From positions 682,001 through 746,000 of the forward strand of contig JAQGEQ010000380.1 of the NCBI GenBank assembly GCA_034620365.1: a DNA stretch of 64,000 nt, written 5' to 3'. Shown here piece by piece: positions 4,901 to 51,369 of the stretch. The notes beneath the pieces are model-generated. The model saw only the letters and a list, made by a program, of their open reading frames with translations. It did no database searches and was not told where the DNA came from. A program made the translations under genes and the position numbers. Numbering within the stretch: the stretch's first letter is position 1; each line of letters starts with the position of its first letter. The DNA is from Pegea sp. RAD2-039 (taxonomy: Eukaryota > Chordata > Thaliacea > Salpida > Salpidae).

Positions 4901-6425
4901 CATTCTTAGCCCAGGTTTTGGCCAGCCATGGGCTTCCTGGTCCAGTTTGAAAAACTAATTCTTTGCCACCTGCCCCAGCAGCTTCAAGATTAATAAAAGC
5001 TTTCACCTGAAAAAGTCGAAAATTGAAGACAATTTGAATAAATGGAAAAAAATTTGGTGAGATTTGAAAGAAATAATCAGTGATGTTTTGGTGAATATTC
5101 TTTTATAAGTTTTACTTTCTGAAATATTCATCACTTTGTACACAAATATAAATTGCAAAATTTGATTAATAATCAGAATCTGAAAAAAGTTTAAACCAAA
5201 AAATATAAAGTTTCATTTCTTGAAAGATTTGTAAAATTTTCAAACAGAAGCACCAAGAAGAATAAAATTATAGAATTTACAAGATTATTTCAAAGCACTT
5301 GTTGATATTTCTTATGCTTGAAACAATTTTTTAGTTTTAAAAAGTTAAATCAGAACAAATAACTAATACAGAACAAATACATAACTTGCATTTTGCAAAT
5401 AATAGAATATTTCATTTGAAACATTTACCTGCTTCGCCCATTTATGTTGAGTGATAAAAGCATGACTTCCTTGAAGAATATTTTCTTCTGCTCCATTAAA
5501 CAGAAATATTAAAGGAGCTTTGAGTGGCTCCTGATTAGCTAAGATTGCACGAATTATTTCAATTAGAATTGAGCAAGCAACTGCATCATCACTAGCTCCT
5601 AAAAGAAAATCAAAATAGTTTGGCAATTTTCAACTAAATATTCAAACTATTGTGTAACACATAGAAACATGCAAAAATAATCAATCAAACCCTAAACTGT
5701 TTAATTATTGAGTAGTTTATGTTTGTACTTAAACATTATTTGTTCAAACATGAATTAACCTAAAGCACCAAGAGCTGAGTCAGTATGACAATTAACTAGC
5801 AGAGCATTTTCACTAATTTGATGATCAGGAGACGATAACTTCACAACAGTGTTTTTGACTCCCTGATAAGAGCTTGCAAAACCACTGAGAAAGTTCAGTC
5901 CGAAACTTCCCTAAAACAAGAATTACTTTTCAAATATTATTGGTAACAAAACATAAAGTCAAAATAAAGTCAAATATATTTGTTAAAACTGGAATTTAAA
6001 GGCTCGAGAAAGTTCACCTTATCTGTGGTAACGTCAATTTCAACTTGAACAGGACTTTGCCCATAATCTTTCACTAATTTTCTCACAGTATTTTTGATGT
6101 ACTTCATTGACTGTTCGTCATTGGCAACACTTCCAGCTGGTCGAAGCCCGAATGATAAAAAGTTTTTCAAGTGGATTCTGCAATGACATAAAGAAAAAGT
6201 ATTTGGCTTCAAATATTTCAAAATTTTTTAACTTTTAATAATGTTAAAATATAGAATGATGTACCTTGCTTGCAACTCCTGAAATGAATTTGTATTTTTC
6301 AGCACTTCAAGGTCTGTTTCATTATTAGGTTCCGGCAAAGTATTTATTGACAACTTCACTAATCCAAATATTATTGAAATAAATAAAATGAGTACTCCAA
6401 AATAAAATTTCTCTGACATAAGCAT
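1970..6425 (-). CDS. ERMP1: Endoplasmic reticulum metallopeptidase 1 (M28 family)
   Basis: Fifteen exons join to 945 codons plus stop: 6425-6265, 6177-6018, 5910-5760, 5598-5429, 5006-4825, 4775-4654, 4600-4373, 4323-4094, 4040-3857, 3715-3656, 3532-3295, 3239-3122, 2924-2777, 2724-2575, 2505-1970. All introns are GT-AG. An N-terminal membrane segment precedes an M28 peptidase domain with likely zinc ligands His149 (NCHTDS), Asp161 (GASDD) and Glu195/Glu196 (GAEEN), then the family motif PGIDLAY and YHTIYD. Several hydrophobic segments follow, and the tail carries FPY, PMRLYSQHIQR, CQWPWY and GPSHLSL typical of ERMP1/Fxna. The length is close to the vertebrate protein (about 900 residues). 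It is expected to be an ER membrane peptidase. The second ATG at 6419 is an alternative start. A 3' splice acceptor lies 12 bases upstream of the first ATG. Confidence 0.95.
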
Positions 6426-6436
6426 TTTGTAAATAC

Positions 6437-6438
6437 CT
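6437..6438 (-). other. 3' splice acceptor upstream of the ERMP1 start
   Basis: The sense strand reads TTGTTCTTAG followed by 11 bases and the ATG at 6425. No 5' exon is recognisable upstream. It may take a spliced leader or a non-coding first exon. Confidence 0.35.
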
Positions 6439-6647
6439 AAGAACAATTTTAATAAAAAGTGAACTTTAAATAAATTAAATGTAAGTTCAGAAAATAATCT
6501 TTTGAATTACTAAGTTACAATCAAATATATTTAAGCCAAAGTTAATTTAAAATAATTTAAAGATAAAATAATTAATTTAAGAAGTAAAACCAATAAATAG
6601 CAGCTAAATAGATAAAACTTAATAAAAACTGCTTATCAAAATTAAGT

Positions 6648-7539
6648 TTAGGTAGTTTTGTTATTGATTTTATTATTTCTATCACTACCTTCAGTTGTTT
6701 GAGGAGCTTTATATTCTTCCTTTATTTCTTTAACAATAGTTCGAGGTTCATCAGTAACAGTAGTAAGAGTAGAATGAGAGGTAACCACTTCAGAAGTACA
6801 AGGACTTGTACTAGCAGAGTGTTCACCACTTTTACATGACTTAGGTTTTCTTTTTGACTTATTACATGTTTCAAGATCTAACACTTCTAATCTAGGCTTC
6901 TTAGAAGCACAAGTCAATTTTTTCTCACTAGATGATTCACATTTTTTTTTCTCTGTGTCTGATGGCAACTCTTTGCAAGTAGAACTAAAACTCTTTTTTA
7001 AAATAGAGGCAGAGCTTTTTGAGTCATCATCATCACTTAACTTTTCTACATTTGCTAAAGTTGAAGAAAATTCTTGAGCTAAATTTCTGTTGGCTATTTC
7101 AACTTCTCTTTGAATTTCAGTAACTTCATCATTTGATGGTGAATCATTTCTCTCTCTGACTAACTCGGAAAGCTTTCCTTTTAAATCTTTACAACATAGG
7201 TTTGGATCATCTGGATCAACTACCTTACCTATATTTCAAAGTAAAGTGTTTGGTAAAAAAATTTTGGTGAAAAATAAAGTTTATTAAGAAATAATTTACT
7301 AATATATCAAAGTATAAATTTTCTAAAACTCAACTATAATACCAAGTTAGGTATTCTAAAAAAATATTCTAACCATATCTGTCAACCATGCTCTTTGAAC
7401 ATTTTGCCTTTGTTTTACTTTTAGGAGGGCATTTGCTTTTTTTTATAGGTGCACTTTTTACACTACCTTTTTTAGTTACTTTATTGCTTTTATCATCACA
7501 ATCATCTGTTGTTTTTGATGAAGATTGTTGATCTTTCAT
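6648..7539 (-). CDS. Unidentified Lys/Ser-rich, probably nuclear protein
   Basis: Two exons, 7539-7374 and 7228-6648, join in phase to 248 codons plus stop across a 145-nt GT-AG intron. The N-terminal 45 residues are strongly basic with Cys/Pro/Lys runs such as KKSKCPPKSKTKAKCSK, resembling a nuclear localisation region. The centre contains VDRYGKVVDPDDPNLCC followed by an acidic, helix-prone stretch that could form a coiled coil. The C-terminal half is Ser/Thr/Lys-rich and probably disordered. I do not recognise the family. It lies on the same strand as ERMP1, 222 bp upstream of it, so it could share a transcript or simply be a neighbour. Intact splice phase and codon-like composition argue that it is real. 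Confidence 0.65.
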
Positions 7540-9250: not shown

Positions 9251-10555
9251 CTCATATTATTTAAGTCAATAGCTTTCTTCATTTTATTTAATTGCAGCTC
9301 TAAGGACTATCATTTGTCCATATCATTTTGTGAAGTTTATCTGATTCGAAAAATTTTTAAATTCAAAAGTAAAATTGACACACATTTAACAAACCAACAA
9401 AAATAAACTCTTTTTACAAAGATTGATATTTTTATCTAAAATTTTGTTCTTCATAACTATTATCTAAAAAATAATGCTGTTTTAATATGCTCACAATTCA
9501 TTATCGGCAATAATTTGAATTGTTTATTAGTCATTTTGGCGTTTTATAACTTAAGTATGCTTATGTAAATTTAAATACTTCCAAATCCACTTTCGAATTT
9601 GTAGTATACAGTACAATTACATTTTTCATTTTCTTTCATTTAGTTTAAGAATGCAATGACTTATAGAATAGTTTTAAATATTTTATTAGTATTTTGTTAT
9701 ATGTACGTTCATACTGAAGAAGAAATTTCAAAAGAAAATAGTGTAGAATCCGAAATAAACAAAGTTATTTATCTATTTCTGAAAATTATTTTTAGAAAAT
9801 GTTTTTGATGTATATAAATTTAGAAAGTTTTTTATGATTATAATCAATTGGTATTACTCTTTACTTTAATGTTTTTGGGCTTAATTTTTATTATTTTTAT
9901 GTATACATCAATTGAAATATTAAAACATGTTATATATAAGGTTTGAATTTTATTATATATCTGATATTTTTCAACATTCATATGATCTGATAGAAAATAA
10001 ATTTACTATTCGTTTGATGTTAGACTTAGAAATGGAATCATTATAAATAATTTAAATACCTTATGTTGTATACCAGCAAATCTATCTAGTATGATTGTAT
10101 ATTTTCTCTTCTAGTTATTAAACATCTTCTTAAATTGGTTTTTATTTGTTAGCTTAGAACTTATGTATAAAAGGTTTTTTTCATTTTTTCTTTATTTATT
10201 ATTTATAAGAATTCTTTTTAGTGGATAGTTTATTTGTTTGTTATTTTATGTATGTTTTTTTGTTGTGAATATATACCAACTTTAGTAGTTAATTGAAGTA
10301 AGTAGTCAGTTTAATATTAATTTAAAATTAGATAGTTTTTATAATAGGTTATATATAAACATCAATATTATTTTCAAAATATTTTAAAGGCCTTATTTAT
10401 TTTCTGAAATGTACCATTTTTATATTTCTAAAATACTTAAGAAAAATTTTATTATGTTAGTTTCACTTATTTAAACAAACTATTTTTGCATATTACTTTA
10501 ACATTTTGTTATTAATCAACTATACATTATTTTAAATTAAACAATTTCACTTTTT
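9251..10555. other. AT-rich intergenic DNA upstream of MRG15
   Basis: Apart from the doubtful short reading frame at 9656-9808 nothing coding was seen. The MRG15 promoter should lie here, but no motif could be assigned in this composition. Confidence 0.45.
9656..9808 (+). CDS. Doubtful 50-codon ORF with signal-peptide-like start
   Basis: ATG at 9656 opens 50 codons to TGA at 9806-9808. The first 20 residues are a short polar start, then a hydrophobic core (VLNILLVFCYMYV), then an acidic stretch with EEEISKENS, which looks like a secreted-peptide leader. The C-terminal third reverts to Ile/Phe/Lys-rich noise, so if it is real an exon boundary may fall inside it. There is no homologue I recognise. 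Chance openings of this length are common in AT-rich DNA. Confidence 0.15.
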   Translation: MTYRIVLNILLVFCYMYVHTEEEISKENSVESEINKVIYLFLKIIFRKCF

Positions 10556-10557
10556 AG
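10556..10557 (+). other. 3' splice acceptor upstream of the MRG15 start
   Basis: TTTCACTTTTTAG is followed by 13 bases and the ATG at 10571. It is a strong acceptor with a pyrimidine tract, in front of a gene with no introns in its coding region. Confidence 0.4.
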
Positions 10558-10570
10558 ATTCTAGTAAAAA

Positions 10571-12192: not shown

Positions 12193-14067
12193 TCAATTCC
12201 TCGAGTTGAAAGCGACTCTTCGTGGTCTCAACTTTTGCAAAGTATCGTTTAAGTATGATTGGATGCTTGCTTCTTTCTCACTTCTATTCCCCTTCATTGA
12301 AATGACAAGAGACATGCTACACAAATCTCAATAAACATTTGCTGCTAATGTTAAAAGCATCTTACTAGTTATCAACAAGAACACAGAAGATTGTGGACTT
12401 TTTATTGAGATTTAGAACAAGTTTCTCGTTAAACCGCAAACTTTTTGTAGAATATGCTTTCTTCAAAAGCTCGATGTCGTGAATTTCGGAGGTGTAGGTC
12501 TGAGGAAGACTTAAAACAACCGCAAAATTCTAAAATCAAATTAGAGATGATGAAAAATACTTAAGTTGAAATTAAAGTCAAACTTCACAATTTTGATATA
12601 AAATGTTTGAAGTTAGGAGAATTGTTTCATCAAAAATTGATTTAAATTATTAATCTAATAAAAACAACTGATTATTTAGATGATTAATATGTTAAAATCA
12701 ATATATAAACAACTTTTCACTTTTTCGGATGTTTCAGTGAAGTTTTCAACAAATTTTAAAGTTGTGTATCCATGACACACTTTCGAAAACTCTTTTTCAA
12801 CTCTCAGATACAAACGTAGATAATTTCCATCACATTTTCTTAGAAATATATTTGCTTGATTCACAAAATCAAAACTCATCTTAGAAAGAACTTGCTTCAT
12901 CTCATCATTCGTCAACGATTGAGAAAAACTCTGATTTTAATGAAGTTTATGACCGATGTGAATTTGAAGTTTTGATTTCTCACTTCATAGAAATAAAAAG
13001 TGGATTTTGAATTTAAGAACTTGTACATCTTTTCGAACCAGTTGTAAAGTGCAGAAGTGGGGTTTGAGGCTTTCTCACCAAATCCAAATAAGCTAGATCT
13101 AAAGGTGCCAGAATTTTTACTACTGAATACCGGCTTCCATTTTGCAATTCTTCCAAAAAAAAACTTTATTAGATAGATAATATATTGACAAATAATATTT
13201 TTGAAGTTAAACGTTTAATAATATCAAAATAGTAACGTTTTTATTAATAATTACTATTTATTTTTAATTATAATACTTAATAATAAATTATGAACGTTTT
13301 GAAGTACTTTCTTCAAACTCACATGGAATATGCTTTCTGTAGATTATAAGTTGAATGAACAAAATCCCAAATAGAGATATAGAAGCTCGCCCGCAATAAA
13401 GCAAAAAGTACTTTGAGCTCGTCTAACATATTAATCTAAAATATCAATTAGCTTTCAAAAGCTTCATTTCAAATCACAAACCAACCTTAAGAGAATCATA
13501 AAAGGCTCCTTGTAGAGAATCAGAGATCTCATCCAACAGTGATTCAATAGAAGAGCATGAACGATCATAAGATGCAGACATGGAAGCTTTTGACAAATTT
13601 TGATAAATTGAAATACATTTTGACCTCAAAAGACAGAAGTTTGCTAAATGTATAGCGATGCTATCGGTTCCCTACATTCAAAATCTTTTTTAAACAATTT
13701 GCAGTTGTTAAAATGAACAGACGTTATCTGATGCTATCGATGGTTCTGTTAGTTTTGCTGAAAGGAAGTTTATTTGTAGCTGAGAATAAGAACTTCTTAA
13801 TTGATCTCTTTTAAGGAACCACTTTTGCTCGAGAAACTCAAGTGAGTAATAAGCTTTTTCATTTTGACATAAAGTCAGAAGAAGATTCTGTTAAATAAAA
13901 TCATACTTTAATAAGAGCAGTTTGTAAAGTTTTAAAATTCTTACAAAAAATTGAGGTGAATAGGAAGTTATAATTATCTTATTTTTTTCAGTTATTTCTC
14001 GTGCTTTATCCCAAGAGAATGCTCCAAGAAAAGAAAGATAGCCGTGAAAAAATTTGTCAGTCGACAT
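12193..14067 (-). CDS. KICS2: KICSTOR subunit 2 (C12orf66-like)
   Basis: Eight small exons join to 410 codons plus stop: 14067-13945, 13887-13723, 13671-13486, 13417-13323, 13149-12984, 12930-12721, 12529-12366, 12316-12193. Recognition rests on an ordered series of similarities to vertebrate KICS2: FLGAFSWDKARE at the N-terminus, EKAYYSLEFLEQKWFLKRDQ, ALLRASF, SLFGFGEK then STFYFYE, NDEMKQVLSK with FLRKCDG and CHGY, AVVLSLP, and a C-terminal LVISMKGNRSEKEASIQSYL. Human KICS2 is about 445 residues. KICSTOR is a lysosome-associated complex that recruits GATOR1 to restrain mTORC1 when amino acids or glucose are short. The exon 3/4 junction is the least certain: two acceptors lie 5 nt apart (exon start 13422 or 13417) and only 13417 keeps frame. 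The gene is last in the POLK-PDCD7-KICS2 array. Confidence 0.85.
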
Positions 14068-14103
14068 GGTGGTAATTACACAAAAAAATCTAAACCTTAA
14101 AAC

Positions 14104-14105
14104 TG
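14104..14105 (-). other. 3' splice acceptor upstream of the KICS2 start
   Basis: The sense strand reads CTTTATTTCAG, 36 bases before the ATG at 14067, within the 289-bp gap after PDCD7. No 5' exon is seen. Confidence 0.3.
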
Positions 14106-14356
14106 AAATAAAGTGACAGATGAAATATTTTTCAACTAAAAGCTTGAAAAAGTTTTACAAATTCAGATTTGATCAACTTAAAGAATTGCTTCATTTTACG
14201 TAAATAAATCTTTGATTGAAATGAAAGTGAATTTGTGTCTTGATAATTTTATAAAAACTTTCTTATTAAAAAAAAAACATAAATAAAACATAATCAAAAA
14301 ATTAATTTATTTCAGATTGATCCTAAGACACAAAATATCAGAAAGGATACAAAATA

Positions 14357-16215
14357 TCAAATATCTTCCACATAATGCTTCCATTGAGGGTTTGAGGGGG
14401 CACAAGGTTCGACCCAATCAACAGGGACACAATAGCCCTCTTCCCAGTTGACAAACTGATCCCATTTCTCCCTGTGAAACATCAAGATGATTTGATGAAA
14501 AAGATCTTTAACCTCATCACCTGTACATCCGAAGACTTTCAATATTCAATTCACTTTGATGATGAAGTTGAAAGGATGCCCAAAGCGGATTAAATACATC
14601 AATAGGACCTAAGAGATCTTCATCAATTGATGTTTGGATGTTTCTACTGAACTTACTCTCATAACTTCCAAACAACACCTCAAATCTTCTCTTTTTCCAC
14701 TCTTCTTCAACTGATCTTTGCTTTTCTAATCTTTCTTTTTCTATTTTGTTTTTGATTTTTCTTTCTTCAGCCTCTTTAAACACTCTCAATGAGGCTTCTT
14801 GCTTCAAACAATCTTCTCGGTGAGAGTTGAGCTTCGAAACCAACTTCGCGACTTTCTCATCAAAGTTTGAGCTCAATGTCTTCGGGATCACTTTACCTGA
14901 ACCTCATCACGTGATCACTTGTACGTACCCGTTGACGTCATTACCTTCATTCAAACGGGATTTCATTCGCGCTTTTCGAAGTTTCGCGAGTGTTGTTATC
15001 ATCTGTAACGAACTTGAAACTTGTCTTTCTTCTTTCTTGATATCTGATAAAGTTTCAAGAATTTCTTTTTGAACATTTTCTTCCTTAAATTTCAAATTTC
15101 AGTTGACCAATCATCAACTAGTATCATCAACTCACTCGGATTTGATCTTCTGTCTCTCTCCTCTTCTTCTCCAAGGATTTATTGATCTCTTCTTCCCTCT
15201 TCTTCCACTCTTGCTTCTCGTCTAAACTCTTTTCCAACTCTATTTTCTTTCTATCTTTTATTCTTAATCTTTTATTTTTCCTTTTTTGTAACTTCTTCTG
15301 CAAATCTTCAACCACTTCTTCATCTTGTAGGATTGAAGTAAGAAGTTGTAGGCGGAGCTGAAATAGATGTAGCAGTCAAGTAAACTACTCATCAGCTACA
15401 AGCGAAATATAAGAAACTAATTCTCAGCTACAAGTTGTTTTAATAAAAATCACACGTGAGTTTTTCGAACTTCTACATAAAAATGAGATAATTCTTATTT
15501 GTCTTCTTTTTAATTAGATTATCAAAGTTTTTATGAAAATCTTTTAGCGAAATCTTTTTACAGCGTCATAAAAACTTTGACTTAAAAAAGTATTTTTATA
15601 AATTTCAAATCAATTTAGTAATTTAAAGATTTGAGATCAAATTAATCAGACTTTTCGAAACCTTCATATTTTTCACTTCTTCAGTTCCAGTTGTCGACTC
15701 ATCAACACGTTTCAATTTCAAGATCAGATCTTCAGCTTCTTCAACAAGAAGTTGACTTTCACGAATCTAGAAGTTTGAAAACTGTCATCTCTATCAACAA
15801 CTATTCCATCTCAAACCTTCAAAAACTGGTTTCCATTTGATGATAACTTGGAAACAAATTTTGGTTTTTCGGATTTTTCAATTTGTTTCAAGAAATCGGA
15901 AACAATTTCATCTCTGCTTTTCTCAGTTTTTTCTACATCAGCTGGATTCCAAGGTTGGTTACAAAGTTGGTTTCCTTGGTTACAAGGCTGGTTCCAAGGC
16001 TGGTTTTGAGGATGGTTTCCATGGTTCCAAGGCTGGTTTTGAGGTTGGTTCTGAAGCTGGTTCCAAGGATGGTTTTGAGGATGGTTCCAACGCTGGTTCC
16101 AATAGTAGTTTTGATGATGAGAAGCAAAGTTTGAAGGTATGTGATAAGGTTGTTGTCTTGGAGGATAATTTGAAGATGGGATGGGAGGTCTTTGATGATT
16201 ATACCAATTATTCAT
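14357..16215 (-). CDS. PDCD7: PDCD7-like U11/U12 snRNP 59K protein
   Basis: Six exons give 456 codons plus stop: 16215-15817, 15766-15662, 15357-15136, 15083-14945, 14896-14555, 14520-14357. The N-terminal 100 residues are Asn/Gln/Pro/Trp-rich repeats (NQPWNQP), replacing the Pro-rich head of vertebrate PDCD7. A long Lys/Glu/Arg coiled-coil region follows, including MITTLAKLRKARMKSR, which matches the family's MVDILRALEKLRKLRK motif in spacing. The end has WDQFVNW and VPVDWVEPCAPSNPQW, matching the conserved PDCD7 C-terminus. In vertebrates this protein is the 59K component of the U11/U12 di-snRNP that recognises minor introns. The last junction needs a 34-nt intron (14554-14521); read straight through, the frame would stop at 14517. 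The start is the first ATG, 21 bases past a good 3' splice acceptor. Confidence 0.85.
15945..16110. repeat. Coding minisatellite in the PDCD7 N-terminus
   Basis: Imperfect tandem units of about 12-24 bp built on GGTTCCAAGGCTGGTTTTGA encode Asn-Gln-Pro-Trp repeats on the minus strand. Unit lengths are mostly multiples of three, so other frames also stay open, which explains the spurious plus-strand ORFs here. Confidence 0.85.
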
Positions 16216-16236
16216 TTTATTTAAACTATTTTAAAG

Positions 16237-16238
16237 CT
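16237..16238 (-). other. 3' splice acceptor in the POLK-PDCD7 gap
   Basis: The sense strand reads TAATTTTTTTATAG, then 21 bases, then the PDCD7 ATG at 16215. The POLK stop is only 73 bases upstream of this acceptor. This is the layout expected of a trans-splice site inside a polycistron, but it could be chance. Confidence 0.4.
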
Positions 16239-16311
16239 ATAAAAAAATTAAAGTGATTAAAAAACATCAAAATGACTTCAATAACAAAATAAAAGAAATA
16301 AATAAAGAAGT

Positions 16312-19300
16312 CTATCGCTTGTTGAAAAATAATTCTAAAGTAGATGCTCGTTTTGCTGAACAGGAGGCTACTGGGTCTTTTCTACTTCTTCGTTTTAAAG
16401 ATCGTTTCTCATTTTCAGTCTGTTTTTGCTCTGAAAGAATTTCACGAATCTTCTGACGATTTAAGCAAGTATCGATGTGTTCGTTGAACTTTTGTAGTGA
16501 AGTGTTTGCTCGTGAATAAGAAGCGCGACAAATCGGACAAGTTAAAGTTTCAGTTTGATGTTCACAAGTTGGACCAGGTGCTGCTGGAGTTAGACCAAAT
16601 TTTGGGCTAACTGGACCAGGCTAACTGGACCAGAAATGGATGCAGTAGAACCAGGTAATGGGGTAACTGGACCAGGTACTGATGTAGTTGAACCAGATTT
16701 GGATGCAGTAAGACCAGGCATTGGTTTAACTAAACTAGGTAGTGGTTTAACTGGACCAGGTACTGATGTAGCTGCACCAGATGTAACTGGACCAGGTACT
16801 GATGTAGCTGCACCAGATGTAACTGGACCAGGTACTGATGTAGCTGCACCAGATGTAATTGGACCAGGTACTGATGTAGCTGCACCAGATGTAACTGGAC
16901 CAGGTACTGATGTAGTTGCAACAGATGTAACTGGACCAGATACTGGTGTAGTTGGACTGGGTACTGATGAAAATATTAGACCAGACTCTGGAGTAATTGA
17001 AGCAGGATAAGATGTAATTGAAAATGTAGGATTATTGGCTCTTTTTAAAAACTTGTTGATTCTGACTTGTCCGTCCTCACCAACGTGTCCTAAAGTTTCC
17101 AGTTTAGACAAACCCACACCTAAAACAAACCAGTTAATTCGAGATTCAACATTCAACACAAACAAACCCATCAAACGTAGGGACAGTTTGTCATTGGATA
17201 GCTTCAATTCAACTTTCAGTAGTTCGTTTGCAACTTTAAATATTTCATCAAACTGACTAATTGAAGAAGGAAGACTTCGTGATCTTGTGTGAGACTAAAA
17301 AAATAGATTACATGTGAAGTTTGGTGAATGAATATCACCTCAAAATCGCTAGTCTTTGTCTTTAAAGTTACAGTCCTTCCTTGTAACAAAGCTTCTTCTA
17401 AATCTTTTGCTAAACAATGACAAAGTTCTTCAAGTTTGATCATCAAGTGTTTAGGGTTGGAAATATCTGGAAAAGTTCTAAAAATTTTATCGAATAAAAA
17501 ATATGAAATACAAAATATGAATAGTTATGCTGAAGTCACCTCTCAGTACTAATACTTTTTCGTTCTCCATCATTTTTAATTCGATTAGATGAAGAAGCAA
17601 GACTGACATGTAAGAAAAAGGAAGCAGAAGAAGATGAGAAGAGTAAAAAAATTCGAGCTCTTTGCTCATACAAGTCTTTACACTTGACAATGTTTAAAGC
17701 TGCTAACATCTCTTCACTGACTTTTCCAATTCCGCTGATCTGTTGATAGGTTTATGAGCAAAAACATCTTGAATGTTCTCTAACTGACTTTTCGAAGTGG
17801 CAAATCAGAAATAAAGTTTAAAACATCGCTACGAGTGGAAGGAATAAATGTTTGTCCGTTTGGTTTGTTCATGTCGCTACCGATTTTTGCAAGCATCATA
17901 TTTGGTGCAATCCCAGCGCTGGCAGTTAGTCGGGTTGACTGAAAATGTAAGCAATCTAAAAGTGTGATTTGGTAATTTCTGATGCTAGCAACCCCCTGGT
18001 TTCAAACGCAACGACATGAACCCAAAATAACACCAACAAATTGTGTGCTTGGTGGGTGAAGGAAAATCTTACAGATTTTAACAACCAATCAAATTACTTG
18101 ATGAATACGAAATCTGATTTCATGACCAACATCTTCAGGAGAGTCACCAAATCTTCGATTTGTTTCAGTTGATCTCTTTTTGTCAGTTTCTGGTATGAGG
18201 TCTTCATTAAACCCAAATGTTTTACGATCCTATAAAGTTACAGATTACTTTCAAATTAAATATTTAACTCTCAATAACATTTACAGGTCTTTCAGATCTT
18301 AACTTTTGTATAAAAATGATTTAAAAGTTACTTTATCAAACTGCTTTCTATCAATCAAATGTTCAGTTATGTCTAGATATGCTTCATCTAAGCTAACTGC
18401 CAAAAAATTTGGATCATATTCCCGAAAAATCTTTCTAATTTCACAACTAATCTGTAATATTCAGAAAAAGAAGTTTTAACAAATTGAAAACTAAATAAAA
18501 GTTGGTACAAACATCACTTCATGATAAAATTAAAATCAAATTCACCTTATGATATTTCTCGAAGTTAGTAGGTAGGATTATGAGGTCCGGACATAGTTTT
18601 TTAGCAATAAATCCAGGCATAGCAGCTCTTACGCCAAACCTTCTAGCAACATAGTTCGAGGTGCACTGAAAAAAGAATCTGCATGAGCTGCCATAGTGAA
18701 TTAACAAGTAGACACGATGGAAAATCTCCAGGCTTTTAGGATTTATGGAATCATTAAACCTGTTAAGAAATAGATAAAGAGTCCTATACTTGATGTTTTA
18801 TTCCTTGTTTAAAGAGATGAGAGAAATGTACAAGTTTTGTAATTTGGTTTTATATTAACATCTACTTTATCAACTTTTATCAAAGATCAAAAAAATTAGA
18901 TAAAGATCATAAAAAATAGATGCTTCACACTCTTTCAGTTGTATTTCTAGTTTGAGATGTCAATGCACTTTCTAAAGATGTATAAATTGTTTATATCATT
19001 TCAATTTTAATATATTTCAACTCAATTATGTTTCAAGTTTCTTCAATCATATACATCAACATACCAACATTGCTGAAGTACCCACTGCCATAGGTCTGTT
19101 TTTAAGTTCAGGTCTTTCTAACTCTTCTACATTTGCATAAAATGCATCCATGTCCACATGCATGATTATTCTACTAAAGTCTCGCGTTTTCTCAATTCCA
19201 ATTGCCAATTGGTCAGCCTAAAATCATTATCAGATCTATAAATAACTTTCCTTTTATTGTTTGCTTCACCTGAAGTAACGCTGATTCAAATTCTTTCTTC

Positions 19301-19904: not shown

Positions 19905-22690
19905 TTTATCAGATTTGAATTAAAAATTGAAATCCAAAAATTAAAAATTGACATCTCAAATTTTAAAAAAGAAGAATATCTACATCAGTAAAAAAGTAAT
20001 GATATTTTCTTTATAATCTTACTTTATATAACATAAAAAAAATGAAAGAATATAACAGACCAGTAGAAATAATTAATAAAAACTTAAACTGCAAATAATT
20101 TATGCTATCGTTAGCATACAACAAAAATAATTTAAAAAACTTAAACAATAATAACTAACTCTACAATTTAAGCAAGTGTGCCAAATTGGCTTCATCTGCA
20201 AATAATAATATTTTGAAATAACTTTAAGCTGACCATTTATACAGCTTCTACCTAATTTAATATAACGCTTCTATATTTTTAGATAATTGTTAAGAATTTT
20301 TGAATAGAATAATTTTAACAAACAGTTTATAGCATCAATTTGCAAATGCAATTCCTTGCGTTAATTTCATTTAATCGCAAAAAATTTCAATAAAACCCCT
20401 ACCGACAATATAAAGTATTTTTAGAAAATGTTTTAAGTTTCACTGCTTATTTTCTATGAATTCTTAAAGTCTTTAAAAGATCAAAACTTTATCTGATTAC
20501 AAAACAATAAAATATTTGTTTATAGTTTTGTAGAAAATGATCAAAGTTTTACAATTGGGTTAAATGATTACAAATTAATTATTTTTAAGATCCAAAAAAA
20601 TAAGCAAAAGAAGTAATTGTAATATTATTTAAGAAAAATTTATAGTTGGAATCATCAGTAAAGAAATAATCAAAGTTCAAATTGTTGGAATAATAGTTTT
20701 CTTCTTTAATACTTTTTCATTAATTTTTTTCAGGATAAAATGCGAAAATTATTTTTAAAAAACTTAAATGTTACAAAACTGTGAAGATTCATTATTTCAT
20801 ATAAATACGTAAATCTTTTTTTCAATTGATAAAAACATGTCTTTAGAGCTATTCGGATGGTTGATGGACGGTCTACTTAAAACATGGCTATATAAAAGCT
20901 TCCACTATGTTACGGACATATGATTGGCTTAAACATAAAATTTGCATAAAAAGATGCGACTGAAACCTTTAATTGCTTAAAATGTATTTATTTTAGCAAA
21001 AATATTTGGATTAACGAATCTAGAATAGTTAGTAGAATTAATTAAATAACCTTTATGTTTTCTGCCTTCTTTTGCTCATTTGCTCTTTTTATACAGTAGT
21101 AGCTTTAAAGTAGCACAATTAGCTTCCTACTTGAGTCACTTCAAAATCAAAGAAATAAGAAAATAAAAAAAATATCTGAGTCCATTTTAGATATTTAATT
21201 TATTTCAACATGTACTTAAGAAATAAGGTTATAACAGTATTTGCAAATTCATCAATTTTGGGAAATTAAAAATAAATGGGTTCTTATTCTTTTATGATAA
21301 CTTTATAAGAAATAATTGACAAGCTTTGCGAGAAGTATAGACTTTGCACTTAAAATGCAGCAGTTAAAAAATGGAACCTCAATTCAAGTTTGTTTAAGCC
21401 ATTTTGTTGAGTTCAGTTATAAATTAAAAATTTGAGAATAGAAATCTATAAAAATATTGCAGAAAATTATTCCAAGAACTGAAAGTACTTCGAAATTTTC
21501 TTATATACTACACTTCACTCATAAACGGTTCTTCTATGTACATTATATGTAAAATCAAGTCTAATTTATAAACTACTGACTTTTGGTCACCGCTACGACA
21601 GAAGCCACTTTATACCTAGTTTTGACAGCTATCTTGATTTACACAGACTAAGCAAATTGGTTAAGGAGTGGCGCTCAGTAGTGAAGTTGTAAGTTATGAA
21701 TGTAAGTTATTGAAAGCCACGCTAAGAAGTTTTTGTTTACTTTAACAAGTTTCTACAGGGCAGTTTTTCTTCGATTTTATATTGTTTGGTTATTCGTAGG
21801 CTCTGTTGCTAAGGCAGTTGTAAATAGATTTTCTAGCTCTTGATTTAATTAAACCTTTTCATATATTTATTTTATCTGATGAAATTGCTTTTAGTAAATG
21901 ATATTTTTTCTTTCTTCTGTTTTCTTAAATGTTTACAGACCAATAAGTTTGAAGTTTACGCAAGGTTTTTTAGTTTTCACTTGTTTTAATTGTCTAGAAC
22001 TAGAATTTATTTATATTTTTCCAAATTTTTGGTTATGTTTAAGAAGTCTCCATTATATTTGTAAACATATCGTTTAATTAGAGATTATTTTATTTTTCTT
22101 GTTTTGATATATTTCTAGATTTGTTTTATTAACATATACTTAAATATTTATATTAAATTAAACAAAAATATCTTTAGTCAAATGTTTTTTGAATTATTCA
22201 TATTACAGATATAAATTTATTGCTTATTTTTATTTAGTTATTTAGTAGAATATTTAGTCTTTTAGCATACACTTTTAGTATATTGTTTTATAAACTTTAT
22301 TAGCAAAATAGAAATATTAAAAAATAAAAATTTTATCACTTATATAAAAAAAAGATTTTTATAAAGATTTTTTGTACTTTCTCACTAATGAATTATTAGC
22401 TGTTTAAGAAAATCGAATTATTTTTTTATTGAATTAGTTTGAAACTATGAAACTAAGCTCAAATATTTTTTTAATGTAAAAAAGTTGTAATTGTTTAATT
22501 TTAAGTTTTTTAAAGTTTAATAACAAAATTTTAAATGTTTTTTGCAAACAATTTTACTTACTTACTGTAATAATAATTTCTTAAACTGAATTGCTTTTTA
22601 ATTTGTCAAAAAATTATATTAACATTTTTATTTCGTCAGTTTTTAAGCAAACATTTTTAGGCATAATTTCCTTTAATCCTTATTAATAGA
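19905..22690. other. Divergent intergenic region POLK / UGCG
   Basis: 2.8 kb of AT-rich DNA between two genes read away from each other, so both promoters should lie here. Two islands are less AT-rich: 20838-20925 (an ATG-started run of 28 codons with Trp/Leu-rich content, ending in TGA) and about 21575-21720 (including GGAGTGGCGCTCAGTAGTG). Neither could be tied to a gene, RNA or repeat present elsewhere in the window. Confidence 0.5.
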
Positions 22691-32524: not shown

Positions 32525-33719
32525 TTTTTCATAAAAAAATTAGAGTTAGAAAACAAAAAACTGGATAACAAAAATAATTTTTAGTTACTATAGAAGGTAA
32601 AATAAGTAAAAAAATAAAATAGATCTAACTACTTAATAGTATATACTTTAATAATTAATATACTTTAAAAACTATAAAATTAAAAATTATTCATTTATAT
32701 GTTACTAAAAGCATATAAAGTAATTCATTTATTAAAAGTAACTTCTAGTAAATAAATAAATAAATTGTAATTAATTTTGAATAGTTTAATACATTTATTA
32801 AAACCATTTTTTAATAATAAAAAACTTTCTAATAATGTTTAAAGTTTGTTGACAAAAAATACATAATAACATTTATAAGCAGATTTAAAGCTCAGCATTT
32901 AACCGTTAAAATTGCAAAAATTAAATTTCTTGTTAACATGACAAAAATCTAAGCCGCTATAATATTTTCATGTTAAAGCTATATATCAATAACCTAAATC
33001 AACAGTTAAGTTATTTGCAGTTCTTGCAATATTTATAAATTAAAAATTCACCTTTTTTCAATGATATTGTTCTTTTCGAAAAACAGAAAAATCCAGGAGA
33101 GGTAGAAACTGCTGTACTTTATATTCTGGTTCAAAACAAACTTAAGCTTGCATATACGATATACAAACATTTTCTGTACTAAATAGTCATTCACAAACAC
33201 TAACTAAAAGTACTAATAAAACAGGATGGTAACAAATAAAAGTAAAAAGAATAAACTAGTTGTAATAAAACTCAAGAAGCTAACATAAGCTCACTATTTA
33301 AAAAAAATAGCACACAGTTGTATTTTTTGTTAGTTTGTAAAAATAATCTTAAAAAAAGTTTTAAAAATGATGAATTTACTTAGTTTCGATATTGAAATGT
33401 TTTTGGAACATGAAGTTAAGAAGATTCTGTTGTGATGGAAGATGAAAATTTTGTAAAGTTGATTGAAAAATCTAATGATAAATTATATTTTTCGGTCAAG
33501 TTCAAACAAAACTGTTTAAAGAGATTTTGGTCTTTTATTGGCTTCTTTATTTTGCTATTATCATTAAATTAAGAACTTGAGGTACTGGCAATATCTTTAA
33601 TCGTTAAAAATCTTTAGTTTCTTTGTTAAATGTTAAGTTTGAATTTTATATCAATTCAATTTGATATTGAGTTTGTTAGCTGATAAAAGAGATGATTAAG
33701 GCATACTTAATGGTTCTTA
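32525..33719. other. AT-rich upstream region of MICU1
   Basis: No coding pattern or repeat relationship was seen. The MICU1 promoter should be in its left part. Confidence 0.5.
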
Positions 33720-36099: not shown

Positions 36100-36489
36100 T
36101 TCACTAAAAATCTTTCATCAAAATAAAAACCATGGTGGATTCAAATAAAAGTGGCAAGAACCTACGTTCAAGTGTACAGAAAAATTCTGACAAACTGACT
36201 TCATCCAAACAAGCTTGCAATGGCAATTGCCAATCCTGCAATAAAATTTGCTTTGGTGAAGATCCGGCAATAAAATGCATTAGATCTCTCTCCTGTTTTT
36301 ATCTCACTTGTAGCGATGCAAGAAAATTTATGATATATCTGATAACAACCAGATGAAGCAAATGGGGTTTAAAGTGGACATAACATCTACCTCCTCTAAT
36401 TCTAATTCAAACCTATATCCGCTGAAATCACTAAATTTAAATCTGAAATTGCCAACGATGTCGCCAAGACCAACAACAAAATTTCTAGT

Positions 36490-37683: not shown

Positions 37684-37874
37684 TAAAATAATGCTAATTC
37701 ACCCTTTCTAAGTCATGCCTTTGTAAGCTTCCTCAATACCAATAATCTATCTCCGATGGTTACTTTTCCGACTCAAGTTGTTGATAATACTTTGGATCTT
37801 TTTATCACATCAAGACCCGAGAACATTATCTACGTTGATCAAAAAGAACCTTTTGCTCTGACATGCTATCACAA

Positions 37875-38118
37875 CATGATTGAATTCAACCTCCATCAAA
37901 CTTTTTTTATGAACAATAAAAGTTCAAGCAAAAGGAATTTTTACTGTGGAAATTATAATGGTATTAACATTTCTATCAGATTTCTATCGATCAAAGCATG
38001 ATTGAATTCAAGCTCCATCAAAATTTTTCCATGAACGTTAAACTCCAAGCAAAAGAAATTCTTATGGTGGAAATTATAATGGCATTAACAAGTTTCTATC
38101 AGACGTTGAATGGATTTC
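37875..38118. repeat. 122-bp imperfect tandem duplication inside the retrotransposon
   Basis: The stretch from CATGATTGAATTCAA at 37875 recurs at 37997 with scattered substitutions, up to TTTCTATCAG. It lies between the endonuclease and reverse transcriptase regions and adds to the frame disruption. The divergence between units indicates that it is not recent. Confidence 0.88.
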
Positions 38119-38670
38119 TGTTTTCAACTCTTCCGAAGACATCAATACTATTTACTCAAGGTTTACTAACATCGTTAATGAGTCAGTCGAAAAATTCATA
38201 CCTTTTTATAGAGCCAGCAAAAAACCAGATTTTCCCAGATATTTAAGGAATTTACAACATTTAAAAAACCTCCTATACAAACAAACTAAAACAGACCCTT
38301 CCATCAAATCTCTGTAAAAAAATCTTTGTATAGTTTACAAGAAATCTATTTCTAATTTCTATTTAGGAAGAGAAAGTGCAGTTTTGTCTTCACCTTGCAA
38401 GAAAATGTTTTTTGGTTTCATAAATTGCAAGCTCAAGGCGAGATCTCTAATACCCCACTTACTTGATAACAGCGACCAACTTGTGATGGAACCAGAAAAT
38501 AAAGCTGAGTTGCTAAAATATCAATTTAATAGCGTTTTTATAACCGATGATGGCAACACTCCTTCTCTTTCCTACTCCGACATTCTTACAAATGTCCCTG
38601 AGATGATAGATCTTGACATAACGGTCAATATGATATCTAGATTTCCAATACCCCAAATCAGATCCCAGCT

Positions 38671-39450
38671 TTGTTTTTAAGAAAAACTAATTCCCCTTTA
38701 TTAATACCTTTATCGCTTTTCTTTAACATGACTCTGAGGCGAGGAAGAGCTCCACAAATTTGGAAGAAAGCTATCATTACTAAGAAAGCTATTATTTATA
38801 AAAAGGGTCTCAGGAATACCGCACTTAACTACAGACCAGTTTCGTTGACTTCAGTTATCTGCAGAACTCAAGAGCATATCATTCATAATCATATGACCAG
38901 TCATTTGATGGAGCACCATCTAATATCTGATGTCCAGCATGGCTTTGTGAAACGGAGATCTTCCCTGACTCAACATCTCACTTTTCTTAATGAGATTACA
39001 GCCCATTACGAAAGTAACACTCCCTGTGACATCATATACCTCGATTTTGCTAAAGCGTTTGACTTTGGCCCACACACTAAGCTCGTTACTGTATTGAAAA
39101 ACTTAAAAATCAACAGCTTTATCTTACTGTGGGTTGAAGATTACCTATCAGGTAGAACCCAACAAACTCGTGTAGAAAGATCTTTATCTACTTCTAGCCA
39201 AATCACTAGTGGTGTTTCTCAGGGTTCTGTTCTGGGTCCCCTTCTCTTTTTAATTTTCATTGAAGACCTCATCAGAAGATTAGTAGCAGTAGATGATGTC
39301 ACAGTGTTTGTGTATGCAGATGATATCAAGCTATTATCTTGTAATCCTAAATTTCAAACTGCACTACACACTGTAGAAAACTGGTCTACGAATTGGCAGC
39401 TCAGAATCCAGCCCACTAAGTCTGAACTTTTTCTCCTAAACCAGCTGTAA
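38671..39450 (+). pseudogene. Retrotransposon reverse transcriptase segment
   Basis: An open run of 259 codons covering reverse-transcriptase motifs: NYRPVSLTS, the fingers, DFAKAFD (catalytic Asp), SQGSVLGPLLF, YADDIKLL (catalytic YADD). It ends at a TAA (39448-39450) just before the C-terminal region, which continues in another frame at 39456. The N-terminal part of the domain is in a different frame (38384-38680). It cannot be translated as one enzyme. Confidence 0.85.
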
Positions 39451-40276
39451 GTTGCTTGAACCAATACTCCATCAATAGATTTATTATTCAACGAGTATCT
39501 TCTGTCCTAAAACTCGGCCTTACTCCATCATCTGACTTTAAATGGCGCAATTATGTTTCCAAAGTCTTCAGAAAGTCAATCAACCTTGTCTTCCTTATTA
39601 TAAAGACCTTTAATTCTAAGGACCCATGCCTTTTTATCAACCTTTTCAAATTGTACGTACGTCCAATTCTTGAATATAATGTCAGTGCATGGATGTCATA
39701 TGAAGTTAGTGATATCAAAAAAATCGAATCTGTTCAGGCCACATTTACGAGATTAGTATGCAGGAAATTTAATATTAAATATAATAGTTATAAACATCGC
39801 CTCAGTTTCTTCGATTTAGATATCTTGGAAATTCGACGGATTAAATACGACTTAATTCTTATTTTTAAAATTATCCACAATTTAATTGACCTTCAGTTTG
39901 ATGATTTCTTTTCCATTAGTCCTTCCCTCAAGTTATATCAGCTCAGACGACACACATTACACCTTAATAAGCCTATATGACCTGATACATTTGTCAGAGC
40001 AAATTTTTTTCGAATACCGCACAATTAGTACATGGAACCAGCTGCCATCAGACATTGCCATGTCAGAATCACTCGCGTTGTTAAAAAAACGGGAGCCGTA
40101 ATAATATTGCCAACATTGTCATTTATAAACTGTGTTTTTTTCTCTTTTATATATTATTAACTTTCCATGTAATTGTTCACTGTTATATGCTTCGAGTGAT
40201 ATCGAAATACCATGTGTTACATTTTTGCTTTCTATATTTTTGACTAAATAGATGTTAATTGTGAGAATGTGTGTTA

Positions 40277-40650: not shown

Positions 40651-40849
40651 TAGTCAAGAAGTTGTTATTTGCAATTCTACTACTCTTCCTCGTTGTATTT
40701 TAGTATTCTATTTTTATTTTTCTCAATTATTCTTTGAATTATGAATAACATTATCAATAATTCTTTATAACAGTTGTTTATGAGTAATAGAAGTCACACT
40801 TTGATTATTTTTATTGCAATTTAACTCATAAAAAAGTTTGAGATGTGAC

Positions 40850-41030: not shown

Positions 41031-41650
41031 CACATTTTTCAATCTTGTATTCTAAGTCTGCAGTTGACTTGAAATGATAAGCCGTATATTAAAGCAAGTA
41101 CAAATAAAATTTATTTTAAATGGTATATATCCAGCCTTTTTACATGTGTGATTTTAATTGTGAAATCATATTTTTAATAACTATTTTCTCAAATTACATT
41201 TCACTAGATGATGCTACAGTGTCTTATTGCTACAATAATTGAAATATTTTTGTTGATTGTTGAACATTAAAGATAAAGTTTGAGCCCCTGCTTTTTAGTA
41301 ATGTTTATATAACTATTATTTATCAGTTTATTTAAATTGTTATATAATTGAGAGTTTATTTTTCTACTTTGTTGTTAGTTTACTTTCTTTTCAAAAATAT
41401 TAGTCATTTAATTGATTACTAATATCTTATAACTTAAGGTTATTATTTGGTAATTTTGTAAAGAATATTACTTTAATAAATAATTAGTCAAGTTTAAAAG
41501 TTTTGTCATATTTTAATTAAATTTTTAGATTTATTTTTTATTTATATGATGATAAGTTAATTGATAGAGTTTTTATATTTTGTTATTTGATAGTTTTCAA
41601 TTTATCAATTAATGAACAATTTGAAATAAAATTTATTTACTATAATTAGA
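41031..41650. other. POR upstream region
   Basis: AT-rich DNA without coding pattern. It should include the POR promoter. An AG acceptor (41648-41649) precedes the start codon by one base. Confidence 0.45.
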
Positions 41651-46390: not shown

Positions 46391-46675
46391 CTGATATACA
46401 AAATAAAAGCAAAGTAAATCTGAAATTAATCAAAAGATTTCTTTCCAAATTAAAGTCTTATAATTAAACAAAATTAAAAAGAACTTATTTAAATAATATC
46501 TTACTGAGTAGTTGAAAAACAAACAGAAATCGATTTCGACATTTATCATTTTTCTAAGTTCTTAACTTTAACCCTCATCCTTAAAACGTCGAATCTACAA
46601 CTTTTATTTCAATTTTATACAAACTTCTATTCTAATTGCTAGATGGTTTGAAAATTGTTTAGATAATTTTTAGAA

Positions 46676-47700: not shown

Positions 47701-49078
47701 CTTTTTATAATTTTTTAAACGTTCATTAATATCGCCTAAATATCTGTTGGAATCATTAGTAATTTATTCTAGTTTAGTTTATTCCGAAAAAATTTAATTT
47801 TTAAAAGTATTTTCTGGAACATACATATACACTTACAAAAGTCAATCAGATTTGAATTTGAAATATTTTACATATTTTCAACGAATATTTGTAATTGTCA
47901 TTAAAGTTCACCAAAATGATATCAATTCTGGACAGCCTCTGATATAACTCTCTACTTAAAATTGAATTTGCCCTACTTTGTTTTTGTTATTAATAAAAAA
48001 ACGCCATTTTATACCCTTATAAACATTCTAACATAAGGTAAAGTTACATCAAATATCTTGAGTTAATTTATTACTGACTGGATGGATAATGGTTACTGAA
48101 ATATTAAAAAAATAATTCTCGTTTATTATGTCCTATTTTGTTTTAATAATTTTCTATATTTCTTAGGTTTTATATTTTTTCATTAATTTTCTAGGTTTCG
48201 ATATAAAACTATTTTTCTGAAATTTTTCTGAATTCATTTTTTGACTTCAAGCGATTTTTTATATGAAACTTATTTTTATTTTTTTTATAACAAATATTAT
48301 TACAAAATACTTTTGACTAATATTCTGAGAGAAAATATTTTATTTTTTATCTTTATCATTTTTACTTTATCAAATTATTAATATTTTCAATAATTCTATA
48401 AATACTTTTTTAAACTTTTAGTAGAAAATTACTTGAAGAAATCTTCAGATGTAGAATTTAGTTCATTAAAAGTAGATTTAAAGTTTTACAAATTTTGAAT
48501 CTATTTTATCTTAAATAGCTCATTAATATTTGTAAAAATAAATATTACAAAAGCTTATTTGTTTAGATTATTAATTTTAAACTATTTTATCATTTTATTT
48601 ATTGAATATAAATGTAGATTACTGATTATATTAATTTTTCTAATATAACATATTGCTGTTTTTATTTTGAGATTGTATTTTGAGAGTGTAATACACAATT
48701 AAATGTAGTACACAATTAAATTAAGATAAATTAAATTTTATATGTATTGATTTTATATGTTAAATTTTAATTTTAGATTTATCAATTTTGTTAATTTTGT
48801 TGTTGTTATAATATTTATTATATGAATTGTTATAAGATAAAACTAAGCTAGGATTTTATTGAGTAAATATAAAAGGTATTTATTTGTTTAAAAAGTTTTA
48901 ACTCAATTTATTTAACTTTTTTTAGCTTATTTATTAATATTCTTCTTTAATTATGTTTATGGACAATAATCATTGATTTCAAAATTACTAATTTTTCCTT
49001 ACTTTAATATTAATCAAGTAAATAGCTAAGTGATATAGTTATTGTATTTTTCCTTATAAGATAAAATTTTTCTACCAC
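47701..49078. other. AT-rich DNA upstream of the homeodomain/zinc-finger gene
   Basis: Very AT-rich and inside the inverted repeat pair. No coding pattern was seen. Confidence 0.5.
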
Positions 49079-49080
49079 AG
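49079..49080 (+). other. 3' splice acceptor upstream of the homeodomain/zinc-finger gene
   Basis: TTTTTCTACCACAG is followed by 19 bases and the ATG at 49100. It is a strong acceptor with no 5' exon seen. Confidence 0.4.
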
Positions 49081-49099
49081 GTTCAACAATTGAATAATT

Positions 49100-51369
49100 A
49101 TGGATAGTTGTAAAGTTAAAACAGCTGATATATGGTTAGAAGAGAATAATTATCCTGTAGTTGATAAAAGCTTTCCAAAGGTATTTATTCCTGCTTCAAC
49201 TGAATTAGAGTTTATGAAAGCTTTTTGTGAGTTTCCATATCCACCTAAAACTCAACTTGTTGAATTCTCCAACGAATTTGGTCTCTCATTCAAACAAGTT
49301 CTTGGTTGGTTTAGCATGAAGAGACTTCAAAATAAAATAAGTTGGAGTTTGTCAGAAATAGAATATGTAAAGGCTTCAATTTTAGAACATCATGATCTAA
49401 TGAAGCAAAACAATGGAGATGGTTTAAGGAAACTTGTTTCAGATCATGATAATATCATTTCTGATATGTCTTCTATGGAATCTGTTGCTTCTAACACTCA
49501 AGTAAAAAAATCTTAACTTGGCATCTTTATTTGAGAGCGTGGTAAATATGTTTCTGTATACTTAGTGGCTTTGTTAAAGTTGTTAGTTGTTTCTTGACAT
49601 AAATTTAGTAATTTAATAAATAGTTTGTCAAATTAGTTTTCCTGATAATGATTTTTTTAAGCTTTTAAACGAATAATTTAACTTTTAATATTTCAAGCAT
49701 TTAAATTTATTTATTTGCTTTATAGCCAATCAAGATAGAACAAATATAAAATGAAGTTTGTTTTCTACCTCAACAGCAACATAACTTAAATCCTTCATTT
49801 TTAGTTGAAGAAGGTAAATTTAAGACTTGATTATTAATGATCTTATTAAATTTTGTTAATTGATACTATTAGTGACTGAAAGACATGATATTTATTATAA
49901 TATTATGATATTATAATAAATGGAAATTATTGTATTATTTTGAAACTAAATTATTTTCATGTAGAAAAAATAGTTTAATTTTTTTTTATACAATGATTAT
50001 TATTTATTTAAATGAAATTTTTATTGTGAAATCTGTTTTTATTATAAAATATTAGGGTTTGCCAAAATTTTATTTCAAAGGATCAACAAATGATCCAGAT
50101 GATTGTAATGGATCGGAAACTTTTTTAAATCATCCAAAGATTAAAAAACAAAAGCTTGAAGGTATAAAAATATTTTAAAAGCAACTTCTCAGTAATGTTA
50201 CAATACTTCTAGTGTTATAAATAATCACAAACAAAAACTTATTTCCAACCATCAGTAACCCATTTCCATTAGAGACCCTCATCATGGCCAGTAGCACTAG
50301 TACTAAAATGTTTTAGAAATAAGTTTTAAACTTCATTCATCTTTTTGTTGACAGAATGTTCTGAAAGCCTCCAATAACAACCTAATGTGGTTAATGAGAT
50401 TAACTATCAAGAAGAATTGGATGATGATATTGCTGATAAAGATCAAATTGAAAATGTGCTTGATGGTGATGAAGATCAAATTGAAAATGTTCTTGATGGT
50501 GTTAATGAAAATGAAGGTTAGTCCAAATCTATTTAGTAAATGAATCTTGAATCTTTTAAATATAATTTCCATAGAAATTCATAAAACTTCAGCTATTATA
50601 ATTAGTCAATAACAAAAACTTATCACTAATCAGCAGTAACTGTTTTCCAGCTGAGACTCCTCAAAACCAAATTAGGAAACTGAAACGGAATCCTGAAGTA
50701 CTTAAAAGAAGTAAATTTGAATTTTTCAAGTATTTAAATAAGACTAATTTTGTAATAAATATTTTCTTTGCAGCTGATCTTCATCACTGCCAGCTTTGTG
50801 AGGAGATTTTTAGCGATGAAAACGTTTTGAAGTGTCATATAAGAAGAAAACACAAAAATAGTAATAAAAGGTTTTCCTGCAATTTATGCAGTTATTCTAA
50901 TGATTATCAGTGCAATCTCAAACGACACCAGTTAACCCACAGTGGAGAAAAACCTTTTAATTGTCGTCAGTGTGGAAAATAATTTCGTCAAAAAAGTAGT
51001 CTCAACGTACATATCAAATCAATTCACCAGAAAGAGACACATGAATGTGAAATATGCAAAAAATCATTTAGTCAAAAATGTGGTTTATACTTTCACGTTC
51101 GGACTGTTCATGAGAAGGAGAAAGCTTTTGTCTGCATCGAATGTGGAAAGTCATTTGGTCATTCAAGTCATCTCAAAGTACACACAAGAATCCACACTGG
51201 CGAGAAATCATTTAATTGCAAATATTGTTCTGAATCATTTGGTGATTCATCTAAATTGATAAACCACGAAATCAGACAACACACCAAAAGGTTTCCTCAT
51301 AACTGCTCCATTTTTCAGAAAGGTTTTATGCGTCCTTCTGAGTTAAAAACTCATTTAGAAAGTCACTGA
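49100..51369 (+). pseudogene. Homeodomain-like + C2H2 zinc-finger gene with two in-frame stops
   Basis: Five exons (49100-49501, 50056-50161, 50355-50516, 50651-50710, 50774-51369) join in phase through GT-AG introns to 442 codons. Exon 1 encodes a homeodomain-like fold (AFCEFPYPPKTQL, EFGLSFKQVLGWFSMKR). Exon 3 is acidic with a repeated DQIENVLDG. Exon 5 encodes six C2H2 fingers and a seventh that lacks its second Cys. Two codons are TAA: 50375-50377 in exon 3 (CTC CAA TAA CAA) and 50980-50982 in the third finger (CGK-stop-FRQ, where Ser or another residue is usual). Everything else, including all phases, is intact, so inactivation would be recent. Alternatively only a 138-residue exon-1 protein (retained intron, stop at 49514-49516) is made. 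It was probably a DNA-binding regulator. Confidence 0.7.

Follow-up and report, generated by a model that had tools for sequence, protein, structure and literature searches.

In nematodes and tunicates, spliced-leader (SL) trans-splicing occurs together with operons. The same combination is described for chaetognaths (PMC12460157). Ordinary introns in the 5′ untranslated region (5′UTR introns), which likewise place a splice acceptor upstream of the ATG, are put at about 35% of human genes (PMC2864569). PMC10280926 contains no mention of trans-splicing. Here we consider splice acceptors that lie just 5′ of start codons in a 64,000-nt stretch of DNA (the window; G000:C6:682001-746000) and elsewhere in the same genome, which is compact (105.7 Mb in 387 contigs, GC 25-35%) and in which many genes have such an acceptor. 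Its gene content and Pfam hits, together with its U1, U2 and 5S genes, indicate an animal, probably not a nematode, since PDCD7 and KICS2 are not known from C. elegans; a search for COX1 had no hit. Acceptors are enriched before start codons and some head-to-tail gene gaps are very short, and we lean towards SL trans-splicing over 5′UTR introns as the explanation.

Acceptors were scored with a generic matrix (T-tract plus YAG), the best site within 100 nt upstream of the ATG being taken. The window provides ten starts, those of nine named genes and of a further gene, here gene X; POLK was entered at ATG 19862 in the acceptor and donor statistics alike. By themselves these ten starts are only suggestive (Mann–Whitney U test, p=0.03; 3 of the 10 exceed the 90th percentile of upstream windows), and for this reason a second gene sample was drawn from the PF00071 small GTPases, in which little sequence separates the ATG from the first conserved box. 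The profile has 147 matches in the genome, and 50 first-exon loci were hand-picked from among the matches starting at profile position 1-3, not every such match being taken; nine without a usable in-frame ATG or with an internal exon and two duplicates were removed, leaving the 39 starts of the Ras-family set. As controls we used 305 stretches of these loci taken another 150-500 nt upstream (the upstream windows) and 2047 ATGs in the window.

Sites scoring at least 8 precede 16 of the 39 Ras-family starts, against 9.5% of the upstream windows and 11% of the window ATGs (Mann–Whitney U test, p=5e-8), and the same number, 16/39, lie above the 90th percentile of the upstream windows (p=4e-7). At a looser threshold of 6 the counts are 29/39 against 37% of upstream windows. 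The excess is specific to AG (p=5e-8): T-tracts ending in GA (p=0.16), AC, TG, GT or TT span p 0.16-0.66, and the milder shift seen with AA (p=0.019) and CA (p=0.009) is expected beside a T-tract and the C of CAG. Divided by triplet, CAG places 13/39 starts above the 90th percentile (p=0.0008), TAG 7/39 (p=0.07) and AAG 5/39 (p=0.27), a picture that is unchanged when the last in-frame ATG is taken in place of the first. That genes of this genome have a functional acceptor 5′ of the ATG is supported statistically.

The best sites at individual genes of the window are as follows, in window positions.

6437..6452, minus strand: ERMP1 acceptor, ending in TTGTTCTTAG; AG end at 6437, 11 nt before ATG 6425; score 5.3, equalled by that of an AAG 38 nt upstream
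10542..10557, plus strand: MRG15 acceptor, CAATTTCACTTTTTAG; AG end at 10557, 13 nt before ATG 10571; score 6.8
14103..14118, minus strand: KICS2 acceptor, TGTCACTTTATTTCAG; 35 nt before the ATG; score 9.2
16237..16252, minus strand: PDCD7 acceptor, TTTAATTTTTTTATAG; 21 nt before the ATG; score 9.4
19980..19995, minus strand: moderate acceptor-like site of POLK; 75 nt before the first in-frame ATG, 19904; score 6.2
22624..22639, plus strand: best acceptor of UGCG; 51 nt before the ATG; score 7.7
32561..32576, minus strand: MICU1 acceptor, TATTTTTGTTATCCAG; 36 nt before the ATG; score 9.0
41578..41593, plus strand: best acceptor of POR; 57 nt before the ATG; score 6.7
49065..49080, plus strand: acceptor of the homeodomain/zinc-finger gene, AATTTTTCTACCACAG; AG end at 49080, 19 nt before ATG 49100; score 8.0

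Those of PDCD7, KICS2, MICU1, the homeodomain/zinc-finger gene and UGCG are strong and those of MRG15, POR and ERMP1 moderate, while gene X reaches only 3.5 within 100 nt. An earlier sequence-only reading had seen acceptors before ERMP1, MRG15, KICS2, PDCD7, UGCG, POR and the zinc-finger gene. This holds in outline, and the strings it gave for ERMP1 (TTGTTCTTAG), MRG15 (TTTCACTTTTTAG) and the zinc-finger gene (TTTTTCTACCACAG) are correct in letters and place; the TAGs lying 1 nt upstream of the UGCG and POR starts are, however, weak (4.2 and 1.8). MICU1, which it had taken to lack an acceptor, has one of the strong sites. For POLK the same statement depends on the start chosen, the best score being 2.6 when counted from ATG 19862 and 6.2 when counted from ATG 19904.

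Four same-strand gene pairs combine a short distance from stop codon to ATG with an acceptor before the downstream gene: POLK-PDCD7 (96 nt), PDCD7-KICS2 (289 nt) and X-ERMP1 (222 nt) in the window, and POP5-NKIRAS (272 nt) elsewhere in the genome. Genes of SL-resolved operons are expected on one strand, 100-400 nt apart and with an acceptor before each downstream gene, and we count the four pairs as having this layout. The boundaries and gaps in the window are listed here.

6426..6647, minus strand: gap of 222 nt from the gene X stop (6648-6650) to the ERMP1 ATG
14065..14067, minus strand: start codon of KICS2; a later exon matches PF09404 (E=1e-4, slightly below the curated cut-off)
14068..14356, minus strand: gap of 289 nt from the PDCD7 stop to the KICS2 ATG; AATAAA 45 nt in, T-rich afterwards
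16213..16215, minus strand: start codon of PDCD7; two later exons match PF16021, one of them slightly below the curated cut-off
16216..16311, minus strand: gap of 96 nt from the POLK stop to the PDCD7 ATG; T-rich, with AATAAA directly at the ATG, downstream of the acceptor
16312..16314, minus strand: stop codon of POLK; other exons of the gene match IMS and IMS_C

The 96 nt between POLK and PDCD7, into which a 3′ end, a promoter and a 5′UTR would all have to fit, contain an acceptor scoring 9.4. Among the four downstream genes only ERMP1 has a moderate acceptor; those of the other three are strong, and the NKIRAS site (12.2) is the second-highest of the Ras-family sample. The layout of the clusters is operon-like, and gaps of such size are typical of nematode operons.

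SL trans-splicing would account for these features in the following way. Many genes would have an outron, with transcription starting upstream, and the first splice would attach a leader from another RNA at an acceptor lying 0-100 nt upstream of the ATG. In the operon-like clusters, POLK-PDCD7-KICS2 within the window and POP5-NKIRAS outside it, this reaction would also cleave a shared transcript and provide the downstream messages with caps. We infer the leader, the reaction and the shared transcripts, the spacing being what points to co-transcription of the clusters. The sequence-only reading had proposed SL trans-splicing, and we favour it, by a modest degree of confidence, because of the operon-like spacing and the lack of a significant upstream donor excess in what is a weak test; the AG-specific acceptors of the Ras-family starts (and, weakly, those of the ten window starts) agree with it as well, and so do U1 and U2 genes with a clear common promoter element. 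Neither a retro-copied leader nor an SL RNA gene linked to mRNAs has come to light to complete it.

Some of the gene names used here come from Pfam or PDB hits (ERMP1 as a peptidase M28, MRG15, the IMS domain of POLK, PDCD7, KICS2 and POR), the rest from sequence features that we take to be diagnostic. MICU1 has EF-hand hits only, the homeodomain PF00046 of the homeodomain/zinc-finger gene scores 22.6 bits, below the cut-off of 22.9, and no Pfam hit was obtained in the single exon scanned of UGCG or in the last exon of gene X. The C-terminal end of the POLK reading frame is presumably a PIP box. The end of PDCD7 is sound, since its Pfam match reaches profile position 305 of 306 four residues upstream of the stop. 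POP5 is a label for an Rpp14/Pop5-family gene (PF01900, E=1e-12), and the small GTPase downstream of it is one that we take to be NKIRAS. Adjoining the POLK exons, a short-period protein repeat (16590-17294) is open on the minus strand, the plus strand being open for 138 codons. Reading frames of LINE-type (long interspersed nuclear element) retrotransposons, in several fragments, lie at 36406-39980 and near 632-1165 and 52190-52360, and in translation have the look of an endonuclease and a reverse transcriptase.

An SL RNA gene would be expected to combine a promoter of the small nuclear RNA (snRNA) type with a leader, a 5′ splice site and an Sm site. U1, U2 and 5S genes were found in the genome, and the U1 and U2 genes have a common promoter element, CCRCAAAYNNNARAMTT, about 57 nt upstream of the start; it is also found upstream of a tRNA-Sec called by ARAGORN and of sequences that we take to be U4, U5, U6 and U3. 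Genome-wide the element matches at 294 places and its reversed pattern at 31; for a stricter form the counts are 138 and 1. A TATA-like box follows 24-28 nt after the start of the element at U1, U4 and two of four U2 genes, at 16, 16 and 28 nt at U5, and at 33 nt at three U6 genes and tRNA-Sec, as if the spacing sorted RNA polymerase II from polymerase III genes, an assignment of polymerases that we assume.

The same element drives seven multi-copy families of small RNAs, named below by contig. Their copy numbers are counts among the promoter-element matches listed (100 of the 294 and 100 of the 138, in overlapping sets), a part of which were read.

G000:C22:260-374 kb (L071-L083, L099), one strand: C22 array; at least 35 places; of the 13 fetched, 11 span the RNA; related units in L099
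G000:C72 (L153, L158, L159): C72 family; at least 18 places, three read, two alike
G000:C102 (L155, L160, L161): C102 family; at least five places, three read
G000:C188 (L156, L157, L162, L163): C188 family; at least 11 places, four read
G000:C8:18-46 kb (L050-L054): C8 family; five copies, all read; RNA about 75 nt
G000:C60 and C89/C93 (L152): C60 family; at least nine places on C60, one of them read; the element variant recurs at four places on C89/C93
C12 family: at least seven places, all inside fetched loci

In C22, C72, C102, C188 and C8 an Sm-like site is followed by a hairpin, although many C22 sites are off consensus and one of the four C188 copies read (L157) has no hairpin. Copies of a family share the 3′ hairpin and Sm-like site, a 5′ hairpin folds in some copies only, and in C22, C72 and C188 some copies are very unlike one another in the 5′ part. 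The C22 copies read have an Sm-like site, a variable 5′ part and a conserved 3′ hairpin, ACTGATGAAAYATCAGT or, in a subtype, CTGGTGAAATACCAG. The C8 RNA consists of a 5′ hairpin with a GCGA or GAGA loop, a donor-like GTATC, the Sm-like AATTTTGG and a 3′ hairpin; with the promoter element in place, the donor-like TTTAG/GTATCT (TTTAA/GTATCG in one of five) lies just 5′ of AATTTTGG. In the one C60 copy read, the promoter element is followed by a consensus 5′ splice site, GTG/GTAAGG, about 26-29 nt past the expected start, with no clear Sm site. C8 or C60 could be a leader RNA, and we treat both as candidates. None of these RNAs matched Rfam, SmY included, at E up to 3 or 1 in the loci scanned.

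Two explanations other than trans-splicing have to be weighed. The sequence-only reading had allowed for chance, by which T-runs followed by AG are simply common in AT-rich DNA and their closeness to an ATG is meaningless. Acceptor-like sites are frequent everywhere (9.5% of upstream windows score at least 8), the ten window genes give by themselves only p=0.03, single weak sites such as those of POR or ERMP1 could still be chance, and with a cruder matrix, for which 14 roughly modelled introns of the window served as training set, the Ras-family set falls within the shuffle range (24/39 at the lowest threshold against a mean of 17.6 and a maximum of 26; 6/39 at the highest against 2.1 and 7). 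Yet the enrichment is found at 39 independent starts and is gone when the T-tract ends in GA, AC, TG, GT or TT, leaving only the mild AA and CA shifts. Because this AG-specific enrichment comes from a second gene sample, we consider chance a very improbable explanation genome-wide.

Ordinary 5′UTR introns are a more serious rival, one that we hold to be possible but less likely than trans-splicing. Short non-coding first exons would lie upstream, sometimes within the neighbouring gene, and their introns would end just before the ATG. The human share of about 35% is similar to the excess found here (16/39 against 9.5%) and could explain much of it, but the looser threshold gives a larger excess (29/39 against 37%), and the 96-nt gap would push the first exon of PDCD7 into POLK. 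The two readings differ in that a 5′UTR intron requires a donor upstream and an outron none. Comparing sense with antisense donor scores up to 550 nt upstream at 46 loci (39 Ras-family, seven window genes), we found no significant excess (a weak test; p=0.43-0.72 when the matrix was trained on the window, p=0.20-0.43 when it was generic), though all 29 introns called in the window models are shorter than 600 nt; these models are rough, with no call for 10/39 adjacent exon pairs and several others probably wrong. At the 24 strong-acceptor loci alone the donor test gives p=0.054 at 250 nt, 0.34 at 400 nt and 0.16 at 500 nt. Donors implanted at 30% were recovered with a power of 0.77-0.96, that of the real-intron control with the generic matrix being much lower. 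The results weakly suggest that a partner donor in cis is absent.

Several observations count against trans-splicing. Because the positive control of the donor test, 60 real internal exons scored with the generic matrix, reached only p=0.018 and 0.009, the test is too weak to exclude 5′UTR introns in a good share of the genes, and the absence of upstream donors is not firmly established. To this are added the cruder-matrix result, the merely moderate acceptor of ERMP1 and the likewise moderate site of POLK, which stands first in its cluster. Tight clusters are not the rule at the Ras-family loci: a close coding neighbour was detected upstream on the same strand in only 1/39 and on the opposite strand in 0/39 (score cut 14, close to the 90th percentile of a calibration set that includes windows with unannotated genes). 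The genome search for a leader donor gene, proposed as a check by the earlier reading, turned up neither a retro-copied leader nor an SL RNA gene that could be linked to mRNAs, C8 and C60 being unproven candidates. The candidate C8 leader has five exact matches genome-wide, all in its own genes, and with one mismatch three elsewhere against two for the reversed pattern, so retro-copying of it was rejected; among these three, L098 agrees with the leader over its final 15 nt, for which a hand estimate gives about 0.4 chance matches per genome. The exact rotifer SL (PMC3795323 Table 1) has no match genome-wide, which weighs little, as leaders differ between phyla according to the same paper. A leader-like motif in the 5S spacer, GCTTATTACAATTAAG followed by GT, was also rejected, the best promoter-element score there being -7.2 and no full Sm consensus being present; it has four exact copies genome-wide, all in one 5S array, and it resembles the rotifer leader at p=0.0085, uncorrected for the ten leaders compared, another of which scores equally well. 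The nine further leader consensus strings were compared with the 5S spacer and eight RNAs only. A lower-threshold scan of 361 kb produced no further leader-RNA candidate among the best 45 of 200 unassigned sites, and a literature search by sequence strings of the 5S-spacer candidate and the C8 and C22 RNAs returned only titles on other subjects.

If SL trans-splicing does operate here, the annotation of start sites and gene boundaries in this genome changes and the patchy distribution of trans-splicing among animals gains one more case, while the small Sm-type RNA families would offer a way into how trans-splicing systems acquire helper RNAs. In a speculative and rather unlikely extension, the animal trans-splices and also uses its snRNA promoter to express the Sm-type families C22, C72, C102, C188 and C8, with their conserved 3′ end (Sm-like site and hairpin) and, in three of them, variable 5′ part, as fast-changing spliced leaders or as independently arisen SmY-like helper RNAs.

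Compared with the 5′UTR introns of ordinary animal genes, the genes studied here share the acceptor upstream of the ATG but differ in showing no significant excess of the donors with which such introns should pair, in a weak test. According to PMC11229312, SmY RNAs are specific to nematodes, carry an Sm site flanked by two stem-loops and take part in SL1 trans-splicing. Our families differ from them in matching no Rfam SmY model at the E values given, for the loci scanned, and in forming several families with unrelated 5′ parts; they resemble them in being small multi-copy RNAs with an Sm-like site, a 3′ hairpin and in some cases a 5′ hairpin. Unlike in described SL systems, the leader RNA is here only a candidate, with no exact match to the rotifer leader (PMC3795323 Table 1). 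As in the SL trans-splicing with operons outlined for chaetognaths (PMC12460157), an acceptor stands just before the ATG and head-to-tail genes lie 100-300 nt apart with a T-rich spacer between them.

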